Source of the DNA: Ferrimonas futtsuensis DSM 18154
GTDB lineage: Bacteria > Pseudomonadota > Gammaproteobacteria > Enterobacterales > Shewanellaceae
NCBI RefSeq assembly: GCF_000422645.1
Contig: NZ_KE383896.1
Coordinates: 67,461-131,460, forward strand
Length of the DNA stretch: 64,000 nt
Direction of reading: 5' to 3'
Program-made: the position numbers and the translations under genes
Notes under the pieces: generated by a model
Told to the model about the DNA's origin: nothing
The model's database searches: none
What the model saw: the letters and a program-made list of their open reading frames with translations, nothing else
Shown here: positions 6,359 through 52,225 of the stretch, one piece after another
How positions within the stretch are numbered: the stretch's first letter is position 1
How the letters are laid out: every line of letters starts with the position of its first letter

Positions 6359-7942
6359 TCACCGGGTGACCGCAGGCGCACCGTTGGGCGCGCACACACG
6401 CCGCAGCACCAGCACCACCAGCAACAAACCCAGGGTGGCCGTACCAAAGCCCAGGGCGACAGACCCTGTAATGCCCAACACCAGGTAGCCAGCCAGGGAG
6501 ATCACCGCCGTCAGCAACGCATAGGGCAGCTGAGTGGTGACGTGATCGATGTGATGACACCCCGCTCCGGTGGAGGAGAGAATGGTGGTATCAGAGATGG
6601 GCGAGCAGTGATCCCCAAATACCGCACCGGCCAGCACCGAGGAGAGCATGGGCAGCATCAAGGCCAGATCCACCGCTTCCGCCATATTGGCCGCAATGGG
6701 CAACATAATGGCGAAGGTTCCCCAACTGGTGCCGGTGGCAAAGGCGGCAAAACCACTCAGGATAAACAGCAGTGCCGGCAGGGACCAGGCTGGCAGGTTA
6801 CCCTGGGCCAGGGACGCCATATACTCACCGGTGTTGAGATCGCTGATGATGCCGGCAATGGTCCAGGCAAACAGCAGGATGTAGATGGCGGGCAGCATCG
6901 ACTTGGTGCCACTGATCACCGCCTTCACCATATACCCCACGGGCACGCCCTGCATCAGACTGAACACCAGCGTGAAGCCCACCCCTGCCAGGCCGGAGTA
7001 GAACAGAGACCAGGCCACGTCGGTATTCTCGAACGCGCCGATCAGGCTGAAGGCTTTGCCGTCGGCAACCAGAGCCTGGTTGCCTGAATAGAGCATCAGG
7101 GCGACGGTGATGGCGATCAGAAAGCCGATGGGGGCCACCAGGCCGGCCACCCGGCCATTGTCCGCTTCAGGCAGATCCAGCTCCTCCCCCGGGGGCACAC
7201 CACGGGACTCCTCCCAAAGCTGGCCGGCGCGGGCACGCTGTTCGGCCCGGGCCAGAGCACCAAAATCCAGGCCGAAATAGACTACCGCCAGCAGCAACAG
7301 GAAGGCGAAGATGGCGTAGAAGTTCATCGGCACCATCTGGATAAAGGCACTCAGGTAACCGATCTCGGTCATGCCGTGGGTGGTCAGCAGACCGCCGATC
7401 AGCGCGATGATGTACGCCCCCCATGAAGAGATGGGAGAGATCACGCAAATGGGCGCCGAGGTGGAGTCGATGCAGTAAGCCAGTTTCTCCCGGGACACTT
7501 TGTAGTGATCGGTTACCGGCCGGGCGACCGAGCCCACCACCAGGGTATTGAAGTAATCGTCGATGAAGATCACCACACCCAAGGCCATGGTCATCAGCTT
7601 GGCATCCCGGCCGGAGCGGATCCGCTTGCGGGCCCAGGCGGCAAAGGCCCGGGTAGCACCGGAGACGGAGATCAGGGCGGTCATGATCCCCAGCAGCACC
7701 AGGAACCCGAGGGTATAGAGGTTCCAGGCGGCGGGAGCGCCATCGTCCCACACCAGGGTCAGGGCCCGGCCAGAGAGTTCAGACAGCGCCGCCATGGGAG
7801 CGAACTCCACCAGCATCAGGGTTCCCAGCAGGATACCCAGCCCGAGAGAGAGCAAAACCTTGCGGGTCATAATCGCCATCCCAATAGCAACCAGGGGAGG
7901 CAGAAGAGAGAGTGCCGAATCGGCGTAACTAATTAAGGCCAT
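6359..7942 (-). CDS. NhaC-family transporter, probable lysine transporter
   Basis: 527 residues, almost wholly hydrophobic, with about 11-13 predicted membrane segments. Seen: NhaC/COG1757 features such as VIFIDDYFNTLVVGSVARP and a repeated GDHCSPISDTT motif near the C-terminus, typical of the two inverted halves of the fold. By sequence alone it would be called a Na+/H+ antiporter. The lysine riboswitch directly upstream makes lysine uptake the better prediction; comparative studies of lysine riboswitches (Rodionov and co-workers) described such an NhaC-type protein as LysW. The ATG at 7942 is preferred over a TTG at 7978. Confidence 0.85.
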   Translation of the reverse strand: MALISYADSALSLLPPLVAIGMAIMTRKVLLSLGLGILLGTLMLVEFAPMAALSELSGRALTLVWDDGAPAAWNLYTLGFLVLLGIMTALISVSGATRAFAAWARKRIRSGRDAKLMTMALGVVIFIDDYFNTLVVGSVARPVTDHYKVSREKLAYCIDSTSAPICVISPISSWGAYIIALIGGLLTTHGMTEIGYLSAFIQMVPMNFYAIFAFLLLLAVVYFGLDFGALARAEQRARAGQLWEESRGVPPGEELDLPEADNGRVAGLVAPIGFLIAITVALMLYSGNQALVADGKAFSLIGAFENTDVAWSLFYSGLAGVGFTLVFSLMQGVPVGYMVKAVISGTKSMLPAIYILLFAWTIAGIISDLNTGEYMASLAQGNLPAWSLPALLFILSGFAAFATGTSWGTFAIMLPIAANMAEAVDLALMLPMLSSVLAGAVFGDHCSPISDTTILSSTGAGCHHIDHVTTQLPYALLTAVISLAGYLVLGITGSVALGFGTATLGLLLVVLVLRRVCAPNGAPAVTR

Positions 7943-8033
7943 CGTTATCTTATCGTTGTGGATTAGCGATGGAGGCAACTGACACGACTGTGCGTCGAGG
8001 GAGGGATATGCAAAGAATAGAAACCCACCGTCC

Positions 8034-40257: not shown

Positions 40258-40986
40258 TTATTCAGCTTCTACGAAACCGTCTTGCTCAGCCTGAACAGCC
40301 AGGTCCTGGTTGCGACCTTCGGTTACAGCTTCAGCAACAGCGCCGGTGTACAGCTGGATAGCACGGATTGCATCGTCGTTACCGGGGATAACGTAATCGA
40401 TGCCGTCTGGGTTGGAGTTGGTATCAACTACGGCAACTACTGGGATACCCAGGTTGTTGGCTTCCTTGATGGCAATGTGCTCGTGCTCGGCGTCGATCAC
40501 GAAGATAGCATCAGGCAGGCCGCCCATGTTTTTGATACCGCCCAGAGACTTCTCCAGCTTAACCATTTCACGAGTACGCATCAGCGCCTCTTTCTTGGTC
40601 AGCTTCTCGAAGGTGCCGTCTTGGCTCTGAGCTTCCAGGTCCTTCAGACGCTTGATGGACTGACGAACGGTCTTCCAGTTGGTCAGCATGCCGCCCAACC
40701 AACGGTGGTCAACGTAGAACTGGTCACATTTCAGAGCAGATTCTTTGATGCTCTGACCAGCAGCGCGCTTGGTACCAACAAACAGGATTTTACCCTTCTT
40801 GGATGCAACGTTGCCCAGGAAAGCCAGAGCGTCGTTCATCATAGGAACGGTGGATTCCAGGTTGATGATGTGAACACGGTTACGTGCGCCGAAGATGAAA
40901 GGCTTCATCTTAGGGTTCCAGTAACGGGTTTGGTGACCGAAGTGCACACCGGCCTTCAGCATGTCGCGCATAGATACAGTTGCCAT
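40258..40986 (-). CDS. rpsB: 30S ribosomal protein S2
   Basis: 242 residues (E. coli 241). Seen: [27 protein letters not shown]-type N-terminus, the [16 protein letters not shown] segment, [14 protein letters not shown], and [15 protein letters not shown]. The ATG at 40986 is chosen from family N-termini; an upstream in-frame start adds four residues. Head of the long minus-strand run, divergent from map. Confidence 0.98.
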
Positions 40987-40991
40987 GAGAT

Positions 40992-41090
40992 TCCTCAATA
41001 ATATATGGGGTTAAGCCTCCACGTATCCCATGACCCGACCCCTGAGGGCACCCCGGACCATGTGCCGATACGTGTGTGGTTTAATAACAA
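40992..41090 (-). promoter_or_regulatory. rpsB leader, candidate S2 autoregulatory element
   Basis: The transcribed leader contains CCGGGGTGCC, GGGTCGGGTCATGGGATACG and GTGGAGGCTTAACCCC just before the start region. This closely follows the E. coli rpsB 5' region as I recall it (GGGAUACGUGGAGGCAUAACCCC). Known: S2 represses its own mRNA through the leader in gammaproteobacteria. An AT-rich promoter stretch lies upstream at about 41085-41105. Confidence 0.65.
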
Positions 41091-47612: not shown

Positions 47613-48083
47613 CTACGCCTCGACCAGCGCCTCGCAGAGTTGCCTCTGCCAGGACTCCACCCAGGGCAGAGCCAGCTGCTCGGGTTCCATGGTCTCACAG
47701 GCATCGATCTGCAGACGCTCACCGATGCGCACCGCGGTCAGCTCGGCGAGCAACTCATCAAACTGGCGGCCTGCGCCGCAGAAGGTGTCACCATAACTGG
47801 AGTCACCCAGGGCAACCACGCCGTAGCGCAACTTGGGCACCAGGGGAAACTGATCTCTAAGAGAAAGGAACAGGGGAAGCAGGTTGTCGGGCAGATCGCC
47901 GCTGCCGGTGGTGGAGGTCACCACCAGCCAGGCGTCACTGCCCTCCGCCAGCAGTTGATCCGCTGACTGGGCATCACTGATGGCAGCCTGATGGCCTTGT
48001 AGCTGCAGAGCCTGACACACCTGCTCCGCGGTGAACTCGGCGCCACCATACACCGACCCCACTAACACACTGATCCTGGCCAT
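47613..48083 (-). CDS. yqcA: Flavodoxin-like protein YqcA
   Basis: 156 residues. Short-chain flavodoxin of the MioC/YqcA type, binding FMN. Seen: ISVLVGSVYGGAEFTAEQV phosphate loop, VTSTTGSGDLPDNL and VVALGDSSYGDTFCGAGRQFD, the three FMN contact loops. MioC and YqcA are similar; truC and yqcC next door, as in E. coli yqcC-truC-yqcA, favour YqcA. The electron partner is unknown. Confidence 0.88.
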   Translation of the reverse strand: MARISVLVGSVYGGAEFTAEQVCQALQLQGHQAAISDAQSADQLLAEGSDAWLVVTSTTGSGDLPDNLLPLFLSLRDQFPLVPKLRYGVVALGDSSYGDTFCGAGRQFDELLAELTAVRIGERLQIDACETMEPEQLALPWVESWQRQLCEALVEA

Positions 48084-48291
48084 CGAACGACATCCTGTTA
48101 ATGACTTGATAAATTCCCAATTCCACCTTACTGTAAGGACCGAAAAGGCGCAACAACCGCGCCAACGGAGGCAGGATGCAGTTCCGTCAGAGAGTACGCC
48201 GTATTCATCACAGGATTCACATCAAGCGGCAACGTATCCGCCGCCTGACCTATTTCACCCAAACCCATCAGGAAAGTTTGGGCTCCCTGCC

Positions 48292-49050
48292 TCAGTCCGC
48301 CCCCAGTGGCTCCAAAAGACGATAAGCCTGCTGCTCTGTTGACCAGCCAAACGCCTCGAACAGACGCAGCCACTCCTCCTCCAGCCGGGTTTCCAGCTCG
48401 ATGCGCTCTCCGGTCACCGGATGATCGAAGCACAAAGCCTTGGCCAACAGCCACAGACGCTGCACCCCGAAGTGATCCCGGTAGAACTTGTTATGGCGTC
48501 CGTCGCCATGGCTGGTGTCGCCGATAATCGGATGACGCAGGTGCGCCATGTGGCGGCGCAGCTGATGCTTGCGTCCGGTCAGTGGCTTCATCGCCACCAG
48601 GGTGTAACGGCAACTGTCGTAACGCCCCACCGGATAGGGCAGCTCTGCCTGATGCAGGGGACGGTAACAGGTGATCGCTTCCTGTGGCTCCTTCTCCTGG
48701 TCCGCCTGGGCATCGGCGATCTTATCCAGCTCCTCCTTGAGCGGGTAATCCAGCTCACCGGCCTCACTCAGGTAACCGCGGACCAGCGCCAGATACTCCT
48801 TGTGAATACCCCGCTCGGCAAACTGAGGCTGCATGATTCGGGCGACCTCGGCGGATTTACCGAACAGCAGGATCCCCGACGTGGGCCTGTCCAGCCGGTG
48901 CAACGGGTACACATGACAGCCCACCTGATCCCGGACCATCTGCATGGCAAACTCGGTCTCCCGCTTGGCCAGCCAGCTGCGATGAACCAACAGGCCACTG
49001 GGCTTATGCACCGCCACCAGATGCTCATCTTCAAACAGGGTCTCAAGCAT
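48292..49050 (-). CDS. truC: tRNA pseudouridine(65) synthase TruC
   Basis: 252 residues (E. coli 260). Makes pseudouridine at position 65 of tRNA-Ile and tRNA-Asp. Seen: VHKPSGLLVHRSWL, the catalytic-aspartate motif HRLDRPTSGILLFGKS, and KTGRKHQLRRHMAHL-type C-terminal motif. The ATG at 49050 gives MLETLFEDEHLVAVHKPSG, matching E. coli, with GAGG 6 bp upstream inside the overlapping yqcC gene. A 208-bp spacer separates it from yqcA. Confidence 0.95.
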   Translation of the reverse strand: MLETLFEDEHLVAVHKPSGLLVHRSWLAKRETEFAMQMVRDQVGCHVYPLHRLDRPTSGILLFGKSAEVARIMQPQFAERGIHKEYLALVRGYLSEAGELDYPLKEELDKIADAQADQEKEPQEAITCYRPLHQAELPYPVGRYDSCRYTLVAMKPLTGRKHQLRRHMAHLRHPIIGDTSHGDGRHNKFYRDHFGVQRLWLLAKALCFDHPVTGERIELETRLEEEWLRLFEAFGWSTEQQAYRLLEPLGAD

Positions 49051-49363
49051 CGTCAGCCTCACTCATGAGGGAGTCGAGCTTGGACAACAGGGCAATCACC
49101 TCGCCATGGCCAGCCAGGCTCTCTTGGGCCATGGGCGCCACCGCCACCTTGGTGGGCAGGGCAGCACCGGCGTCCAGCAGGGCGAACAGCCTGGGCAGAT
49201 AGATAAACTGAAGCCACTGCTCAAATCTCAGGGTGTCCACGGCAAAGGGCTGAGTACTGGCCAGCGCCTGGGCCGGCACCGGCTCAGACTGCCACAACTC
49301 ATCTTGAATCAATTGCGCCTGCAACCGCTCAAGTTCGCGGCGTACCGCCATCTTCAGGGTCAT
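49043..49363 (-). CDS. yqcC: YqcC family protein (DUF446)
   Basis: 106 residues. Helical protein with QPFAVDTLRFEQWLQFIYLPRL, the diagnostic family segment. Function unknown. It is coupled to truC by an 8-bp overlap, as in E. coli, which suggests a link with tRNA modification or translation. Ribosome site GGGAGTGAG before the ATG. Confidence 0.88.
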   Translation of the reverse strand: MTLKMAVRRELERLQAQLIQDELWQSEPVPAQALASTQPFAVDTLRFEQWLQFIYLPRLFALLDAGAALPTKVAVAPMAQESLAGHGEVIALLSKLDSLMSEADDA

Positions 49364-50493: not shown

Positions 50494-50910
50494 ATGTTGA
50501 ATCTCACCGATCTTATTCTGGGACTGGTGGTGTGCGGAATCGCCGCCATCTTCTGGCAATTGAGGCAGATCTCCGAGATCGCCGAGTTTCATGCCAAACG
50601 GGTATGTCAAAAGCGTCGCCTGCAGTGGGTCAGTACCGCCAGAGTGCGCGCCCGCCTCGGCTTCATTGCCGGACAGGGGTTGGGGTGGAACACCCGCTAC
50701 CAGTGTGAGTTCTCCACGGACGGCATGAATCGGCTGCACGCCATTGTGGTGATGAGCGGCAAGAAGCTCAAGGATGTGGAGATGCCCTTCTATCCTGAGC
50801 CTGAATGGCAAGAGGTGCCCCTAAGCAAGGGGCGCATCGGTGGCTGTGGCGGTGGCAGTGCCCCCGCCTCCAACTGCTCCAGCGGCAGCTGTTCCAGCGG
50901 CTGCAAATGA
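50494..50910 (+). CDS. DUF3301 membrane-anchored protein with cysteine-rich tail
   Basis: 138 residues. Seen: one N-terminal membrane helix (about 5-24), a basic cytoplasmic region (HAKRVCQKRRLQW, RVRARLGF), a small beta domain with WNTRYQCEFSTDG, and a tail rich in Gly, Ser and Cys (GGCGGGS ... SGSCSSGCK) with four cysteines in the last 22 residues. The body matches DUF3301; function unknown. The tail could bind metal. Followed by a strong terminator. Confidence 0.8.
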   Translation: MLNLTDLILGLVVCGIAAIFWQLRQISEIAEFHAKRVCQKRRLQWVSTARVRARLGFIAGQGLGWNTRYQCEFSTDGMNRLHAIVVMSGKKLKDVEMPFYPEPEWQEVPLSKGRIGGCGGGSAPASNCSSGSCSSGCK

Positions 50911-50914
50911 CCAT

Positions 50915-50947
50915 AAAAAAGCCTGACGTCCGTCAGGCTTTTTTTTG
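50915..50947 (+). terminator. Terminator of the DUF3549-DUF3301 pair
   Basis: AAAAAAGCCTGAC and GTCAGGCTTTTTTTT around a GTCC loop. Strong, and symmetrical enough to act on both strands. Confidence 0.93.
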
Positions 50948-51013
50948 TGGCCTCCCCTGGTCAACCTCGGGGGAAGGTGGGTCGCCATCGGGGTGCGTCA
51001 TTTTTGAGCGCCA

Positions 51014-51345
51014 CAAATAGAACGGGGCGCACAGAGTGCGCCCCTAGATATTACACGCTAAGCAATCCCGCTATAATTCGTGCTCCCTGCATCATCCTTG
51101 CGTACCACTCGCTTCCTGCGATCTTCCCTGTGCTGATCCTTCAGCATCCCTGTACATTGCTGTACTGTTCTCCTTAACACGATAACATCCTGTTATCGAA
51201 CGCTTCTCCGTCCTGGAGGTGTCCTGTACCTTCCTTGGGATTCTGCAATCCTGGCAGAGTGGCTCCCCGTTCAAGTCTCACCATCCTAGTGATGTCTGTC
51301 CGGTTTGCCCAAACCGTCTGTTCAATGGCGACTCCCTGTCACGCA
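51014..51345 (-). ncRNA. csrB: CsrB-family regulatory RNA (CsrA sponge)
   Basis: Minus-strand RNA of about 330 nt (E. coli CsrB 369). It holds about 17 GGA motifs. Several are in hairpin loops: GCTGA-AGGA-TCAGC, CGATAACA-GGA-TGTTATCG, TCTGC-CAGGATT-GCAGA and GGT-ACAGGAC-ACC. Stretches match E. coli CsrB as I recall it: GACAGGGAGTC at the 5' end, GGACACCTCCAGGACGGAGA in the middle, AAGGATGATGCAGGGAGCA near the 3' end. A 9-bp GC-rich hairpin (51044-51024, loop TCT) followed by GTTCTATTT ends it. Known: such RNAs titrate CsrA. The 5' end is uncertain by about 10 nt. No protein frame here is credible. Confidence 0.92.
51015..51044 (-). terminator. Terminator of csrB
   Basis: Minus strand GGGGCGCAC-TCT-GTGCGCCCC, perfect 9-bp stem, followed by GTTCTATTTG. 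The U-tail is interrupted but the stem is very stable. Confidence 0.82.
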
Positions 51346-51555
51346 TCTCCGAGCCGATTTAGAAGCCCGTTCCCTTGGCACACTTCAAAGTCTACTCAGA
51401 TCACAGAAACAAACAAGATAGGGGACCAAATCAATGGATGGTCAATTATCGCTCACCCCAAGGGTTAAAAATGGCCTTTAACCATTGGAATCAGTGATTT
51501 GCATTTTGATAACGAGATTGAACCTGCCAAAAGACCCACCATTTTCCTACAGGCT

Positions 51556-51573
51556 TGTAAGAGATCTCGCACA
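51556..51573. promoter_or_regulatory. UvrY/GacA/VarA-type response regulator box upstream of csrB
   Basis: TGTAAGAGATCTCGCACA fits the 18-bp dyad known for BarA-UvrY and GacS-GacA targets (TGTAAG-N6-CTTACA), with a perfect AGATCT core. It is centred about 220 bp upstream of the csrB 5' end, comparable to the distant UvrY site of E. coli csrB. Confidence 0.8.
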
Positions 51574-51580
51574 AAATACA

Positions 51581-52225
51581 TCAGACCGATTGAGCCACTC
51601 CATCCCGATCGGCGGCATCGAAGTACATTAATTGACCGGTCACGTCGCCCAGGGTCACCTTTTCCATGGACTTGAATCCCTTTCGGGCAAACAACTGCTC
51701 ATGCTGCGGTTGGGACACAAACACCGCCAGCCCCTGGGCATCACTCTCAGACAACAGCTGCAGCAGTGACGCCAGAACCTGACCACCGATCCCCTGATTC
51801 TGCTGCTGGGGATGGACGGCAATCAGTTGCAACAGCCAGTAATTATCACCCGGCAACATCCCTTTGAGCTCATCTTCCCGCTCCATCCAATGCCGGGTCG
51901 GGCTCCAGCCGGTGCCCAACGCCATCTTCAGCCGCCAGTACCAGTAGCGACTTTCCCCTTGCGGGTACTCCTTATCGACGATACAGGCGACCGCCACCAG
52001 GACATCCTCCTGGTAGAAGCCCACCAGCTTCTGTTTATGCTGCCAAAGCTCGGCCAGCTCCTCACGCAACGCAGCCCGGAGCTTCTGACCATAGCCTTGT
52101 CGACCGAAGGCCTGCTGAAAAAACAGGTCATCGTGGTAGGCGTTGTAGAGTAACGAAGCCGCAACCCTCAGCTCTTCAGCCGTCAGGTAGCTGGCCTTGA
52201 TCTCAGCGCTCTGCCCTTGGCCCAT
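51581..52225 (-). CDS. GNAT-family N-acetyltransferase
   Basis: 214 residues. Seen: a GNAT fold with the acetyl-CoA binding motif A segment VHPQQQNQGIGGQVLASLL and preceding beta strand YWLLQLIAV, and a C-terminal FARKGFKSMEKV. The acceptor substrate is unknown. The ATG at 52225 has AGGAGA upstream; longer readings to 52345 lack support. Its stop lies 8 bp from the UvrY box, so the csrB control region begins right after it. Confidence 0.82.
   Translation of the reverse strand: MGQGQSAEIKASYLTAEELRVAASLLYNAYHDDLFFQQAFGRQGYGQKLRAALREELAELWQHKQKLVGFYQEDVLVAVACIVDKEYPQGESRYWYWRLKMALGTGWSPTRHWMEREDELKGMLPGDNYWLLQLIAVHPQQQNQGIGGQVLASLLQLLSESDAQGLAVFVSQPQHEQLFARKGFKSMEKVTLGDVTGQLMYFDAADRDGVAQSV

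Follow-up and report, generated by a model that had tools for sequence, protein, structure and literature searches.

The closest described systems are CsrB of Escherichia coli and the two CsrB RNAs of Shewanella oneidensis. E. coli CsrB (b4408) is 369 nt long. It has 22 GGA motifs, and its decay requires cleavage by RNase E just before the terminator, from which CsrA shields it at two adjacent GGA sites (as described in PMC5027483). The E. coli csrB gene has a palindrome, TGTGAGAGATCTCTTACA, with TGTAGGAGA 5 bp downstream of it (as given in PMC4682653). In S. oneidensis, CsrB1 and CsrB2 are described as RNAs of 420-421 nt, rich in AGGA/ARGGA, preceded by a UvrY box and dependent on BarA/UvrY, their expression dropping by a factor of more than 100 when barA or uvrY is mutated (PMC3171408). 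In the literature that we searched, Ferrimonas and CsrB were not named together, and the single paper with both Ferrimonas and CsrA mentions each of them once.

In the window (the whole 64-kb stretch of Ferrimonas DNA that was analysed), we are highly confident that the gap contains, at 51015-51382, a gene whose product is a regulatory RNA of the CsrB type, an ordinary member of a well-known family. The locus and its surroundings are made up as follows.
51581..52225, minus strand: GNAT-fold acetyltransferase (PF13508, PF00583), the upstream neighbour, on the same strand as csrB.
51556..51573, minus strand: UvrY/GacA-type palindrome TGTGCGAGATCTCTTACA, 17 of 18 bases the same as in the E. coli csrB site.
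51389..51416, minus strand: promoter-like block, with TTGTTT at 51416-51411, a 16-nt spacer and TAGACT at 51394-51389 (counted by hand).
51015..51382, minus strand: csrB RNA gene, about 368 nt with 20 GGA, a conserved block in six Ferrimonas genomes; the 5' end is a preferred placement, the alternative being about 51345.
51013..51311, minus strand: part matched by RF00018, at 86.4 bits against a cut-off of 71.
51024..51044, minus strand: terminator hairpin of 9 pairs, 8 being G-C, with a loop of 3 and an imperfect U tail.
50494..50910, plus strand: DUF3301 protein (PF11743), the downstream convergent neighbour.
47613..49363, minus strand: yqcC, truC and a yqcA-like flavodoxin gene (PF04287, PF00849, PF00258).

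A search with the Rfam CsrB/RsmB covariance model (RF00018) had been set beforehand as the check on the CsrB identity, and its match, above the curated cut-off, runs from 51311 to 51013 and spans model positions 1-356 of 356, which is the full length. The palindrome, the synteny and the trans-acting partners all agree with this match, so that the identity proposed in the earlier note is upheld. E. coli CsrB scores far higher against the same model (380.4 bits), and overall identity between the two RNAs is low outside shared blocks; several stretches do align, the longest being AGGACACCTCCAGGA, in agreement with the resemblance that had been claimed. Two other matches, to Thr_leader (50855-50947, 25.8 bits against a cut-off of 55) and to ar15 (22.2 bits against 40), were taken as chance. 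Elsewhere in the window, the minus strand carries a lysine riboswitch (RF00168, 8032-8229, 117.5 bits) just upstream of a 539-residue ORF (6359-7978, minus) that by eye is membrane antiporter-like, and a t44 RNA (RF00127, 41010-41096, 88.4 bits) immediately before an ORF (40258-40998, minus) that by eye encodes ribosomal protein S2.

About 17 GGA motifs had been reported along one strand of 51014-51345, and counting gave 18 on the minus strand (10 of them AGGA) against 2 on the plus strand. Dinucleotide shuffles of these 332 nt contained 10.7 GGA on average and reached 18 in 4 of 2,000 cases, while the 19 A(N)GGA observed, a tally of start positions in which a single GGA may count twice, were reached in none of 2,000. 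The densest 332-nt GGA stretch on either strand of the window runs from 51397 down, with 20 GGA, and the runner-up has 15.

The predicted UvrY/GacA box upstream of csrB differs by one base from the E. coli site and is followed by the same TGTAGG, the E. coli TGTAGGAGA reading TGTAGGAAA in the window (compared with the sites given in PMC4682653). The genome of the window contains two occurrences of a loose form of the palindrome pattern and three of its backward control; since the control is the commoner, the loose pattern alone is not significant. The other loose site (G000:C1:252851), with 15 GGA in 700 nt on one side and 17 on the other, was rejected as background. The strict form turns up in 13 of the 14 genomes of the genus, 20 times in all, and its backward control 3 times; by position half of these occurrences (10/20) lie just upstream of csrB matches, in nine of the 14 genomes; the other five have no strict-form palindrome beside csrB.

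Six Ferrimonas genomes picked for their strong csrB copies (that of the window, L031, L010, L033, L032 and L017) were aligned, leaving out the more diverged copies of the other eight genomes of the genus. Three conserved blocks stand out: the palindrome with the TGTAGGA after it, the promoter-like block, which closes with GAGTAGACTT, and the RNA itself, running from GTGCC to CGCCCCGTTCTATTT; the stretch separating the first two is variable. Within the promoter-like block TAGACT is kept in all six genomes and TTGTTT is less conserved. The block is a poor sigma-70 match that falls below the threshold of a consensus promoter scan, which returned two weak matches, neither of them at this block.

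The ends of the RNA were placed from the same comparison. The earlier note had set the interval at 51014-51345, and these coordinates proved slightly off: the Rfam match begins only at 51311, and conservation with the five other Ferrimonas genomes carries the RNA about 37 nt further 5' than the 51345 of the note. The centre of the E. coli palindrome lies at -182, and the same 182 nt counted from the centre of the palindrome in the window lead to about 51382, which falls 7 nt after the TAGACT box. Because of this spacing and the conservation we favour a 5' end near 51382 over about 51345, where an alignment anchored on the E. coli RNA start would put it. The window RNA would then have about 37 extra 5' nucleotides relative to E. 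coli CsrB; the two are similar in overall length. At the 3' end, the GC-rich hairpin that had been described is present at 51044-51024, where shuffles of the same stretch give an expected mean of 0.7; its tail, GTTCTATTTG, has no clean U run. Between csrB and the DUF3301 gene there is also a perfect hairpin, readable on both strands (50921-50938, GCCTGAC-GGAC-GTCAGGC, flanked by A and T runs), which is probably a two-way terminator between these convergent genes.

A GGA-rich RNA could also arise chiefly as the 3' portion of the GNAT transcript and be released by processing, with no promoter of its own, which we regard as improbable. The GNAT gene is on the same strand and ends at 51581, about 200 bases upstream of the RNA, the promoter of csrB itself is weak by consensus, and a terminator scan found nothing between the two; the silence of that scan means little, since it also passed over the obvious hairpin at 50938-50921. 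Set against this, the palindrome and the promoter-like block both lie between the GNAT gene and the RNA and both are conserved, whereas the stretch separating them is not, and the S. oneidensis csrB1 and csrB2 RNAs fall steeply without UvrY or BarA, as noted above (PMC3171408).

A csrB gene with its own promoter is the favoured reading. The 373-nt piece starting just after the promoter box holds 20 GGA, and the corresponding pieces of the other five Ferrimonas hold 20, 20, 20, 20 and 19. Fifteen of the 20 GGA are identical across the six genomes; of the other triplets 167 of 343 are, so that the excess is modest (p 0.036, with the caveat that adjacent triplets are not independent). With base pairs limited to 30 nt, 8 of the 20 GGA lie in hairpin loops; the same fold gives 6-9 in the other five Ferrimonas and, for E. 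coli CsrB, 12 of 22, while among controls (103 half-overlapping window segments, each having 10 GGA or more) 11% of GGA are in hairpin loops and the largest count is 5. An unrestricted fold of 51014-51345 has 6 of 18 in hairpin loops and several in stems, so that the display of at least four GGA in loops holds in either fold. Of 100 shuffles none folds as well as the RNA itself (z -3.74). Covariation is thin, the six aligned sequences being so alike: 7 of 95 predicted pairs show a two-sided change, and the covariation term contributes -1.68 of -91.05 kcal/mol. That the gap encodes a small protein is highly unlikely: both strands have open frames of 60 to 77 aa that overlap the RNA, but one-base indels separate close species, the open stretches shift in length and frame across Ferrimonas, which led us to reject a protein-coding reading, and the RF00018 match is full length.

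The trans-acting partners of a CsrB RNA were sought in the whole genome (4.30 Mb in 39 contigs, the window lying within contig 3). CsrA gave a single match (89.6 bits), in a 70-residue open frame. UvrY is 70% identical to that of E. coli and is adjoined by uvrC; its match counts one internal TGA, although the frame is uninterrupted across the protein as far as its own end. BarA is 43-45% identical over its length, and rlmD adjoins it as in E. coli. For CsrD, the top match covers most of the protein at 26% identity and scores 198.9 bits, well above the 74.7 of the next GGDEF-EAL protein; it is called only CsrD-like because a look at the 1.5 kb adjoining its gene did not find mreB; CsrD orthologues appear to be limited to the Enterobacteriaceae, Shewanellaceae and Vibrionaceae, according to a review (PMC7652899).

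Three Csr/Rsm models (RF00018, RF00084 and RF00166) were run against this genome. With RF00018, csrB is the sole match genome-wide at E up to 0.001, and BLAST of the 372-nt region against the genome revealed no second copy. CsrC (RF00084) gave four matches of at most 17.2 bits against a cut-off of 61, none at the csrB locus. RsmZ (RF00166) gave 15, none passing its cut-off of 44: the best reaches 29.3 bits, the second-best (27.9 bits) falls inside csrB itself, matches overlap on opposite strands at four places, and 8 of 14 control genomes also match at the same threshold. As no second Csr/Rsm RNA passed these cut-offs or was found by BLAST, it is reasonable to regard CsrB as the probable main CsrA antagonist of this organism, as the earlier note had suggested. 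A decayed, non-working csrB whose job is done by another RNA or protein is highly implausible: csrB copy number does change, other members of the genus having two, but the GGA count is held at 19-20 in six genomes despite sequence variation, with 15 of 20 identical, the promoter block and palindrome are kept, and none of the three models has another match above cut-off in the genome.

The csrB gene sits in a neighbourhood that is partly shared with E. coli, where yqcA-truC-yqcC also neighbour csrB; TruC and flavodoxin equivalogs score above cut-off in the corresponding region of the window. In the window two DUF genes separate csrB from yqcC, unlike in E. coli, and the gene directly upstream is that of the GNAT protein rather than syd. 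The YqcC and TruC genes overlap in the window, unlike in three named Ferrimonas, where about 1.6 kb lies between them (8130-9710 of L031; also L032 and L033); the interval in L031 contains a 311-residue minus-strand ORF.

Among named relatives, the GNAT protein is nearest to those of F. sediminicola (best segment 90% identical), F. kyonanensis (72%) and F. sediminum (72%), followed mostly by Shewanella, and 55 relative loci were fetched through it. A GGA-dense stretch (14 or more A(R)GGA within 370 nt) lies downstream of the GNAT gene on the same strand in 54 of them, and on the other strand in none; the sole locus without one is from Alteromonas (L083). Two or more such stretches occur in 40 of the 55 loci, where neighbouring stretches may belong to one RNA. 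All 48 loci that include a DUF3301 gene have their dense stretches between it and the GNAT gene, related Shewanella loci among them, as for csrB in Ferrimonas. A relative of E. coli Syd is found upstream in 50 of the 55 loci and is absent from the three Ferrimonas loci. When 13 loci were run against Rfam, E. coli and three named Ferrimonas passed the cut-off and nine fell below it (seven Shewanella, one Bowmanella and one Alteromonas). Homology in Shewanella consequently rests on synteny and GGA density, on sub-cut-off RF00018 matches in genomes of the same family, and on the published S. oneidensis CsrB1 and CsrB2. Across 60 genomes, including that of the window, RF00018 matched 42 at E up to 0.001 and passed its cut-off in 14, showing that the Rfam cut-off misses relatives.

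Within the genus, BLAST found csrB homologues in all 14 genomes, the window's own included, at E 1.1e-7 or better. RF00018 and BLAST combined gave two matches close together in six of them (G003, G004, G006, G007, G009 and G013); G006 has no RF00018 match under stricter filters, but two BLAST matches. The two copies are 71-79% identical to the window copy over parts and have the same flanking genes where the short loci reach them. Second, far-off RF00018 matches of only 22-27 bits in G002, G008 and G011 were not counted as copies. The tandem copies (for example in L114 and L116) are more diverged from the window copy, and csrB copy number thus changes within the genus. S. oneidensis likewise has two csrB copies (PMC3171408), compared with the one found in the genome of the window. 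The odds are about even that the Csr system of this Ferrimonas lineage depends entirely on one CsrB RNA, extended at its 5' end.

In E. coli and Shewanella the BarA-UvrY pair turns on csrB, whose RNA sequesters many CsrA and releases their mRNAs. In the window's organism BarA would phosphorylate UvrY, which probably binds the palindrome at 51556-51573 and so probably switches on the weak promoter at about 51416-51389. The resulting RNA of about 368 nt would display some 20 GGA, many in small hairpin loops, bind many CsrA dimers and pull CsrA off its target mRNAs; most likely it soaks up CsrA like its E. coli and Shewanella relatives. Transcription, UvrY control, CsrA binding, turnover and the metabolic and lifestyle effects are all things that we infer from E. 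coli and Shewanella. Two GGA (51086 and 51068) and a stretch identical in the six Ferrimonas genomes precede the terminator, which makes a decay route like that of E. coli CsrB plausible.

Through csrB, the output RNA of the BarA-UvrY-Csr pathway can be located in Ferrimonas; in other respects the gene is what one expects to find in a gammaproteobacterial genome. If the lineage does run on one CsrB RNA, such a one-RNA system would be a simpler model of Csr signalling.
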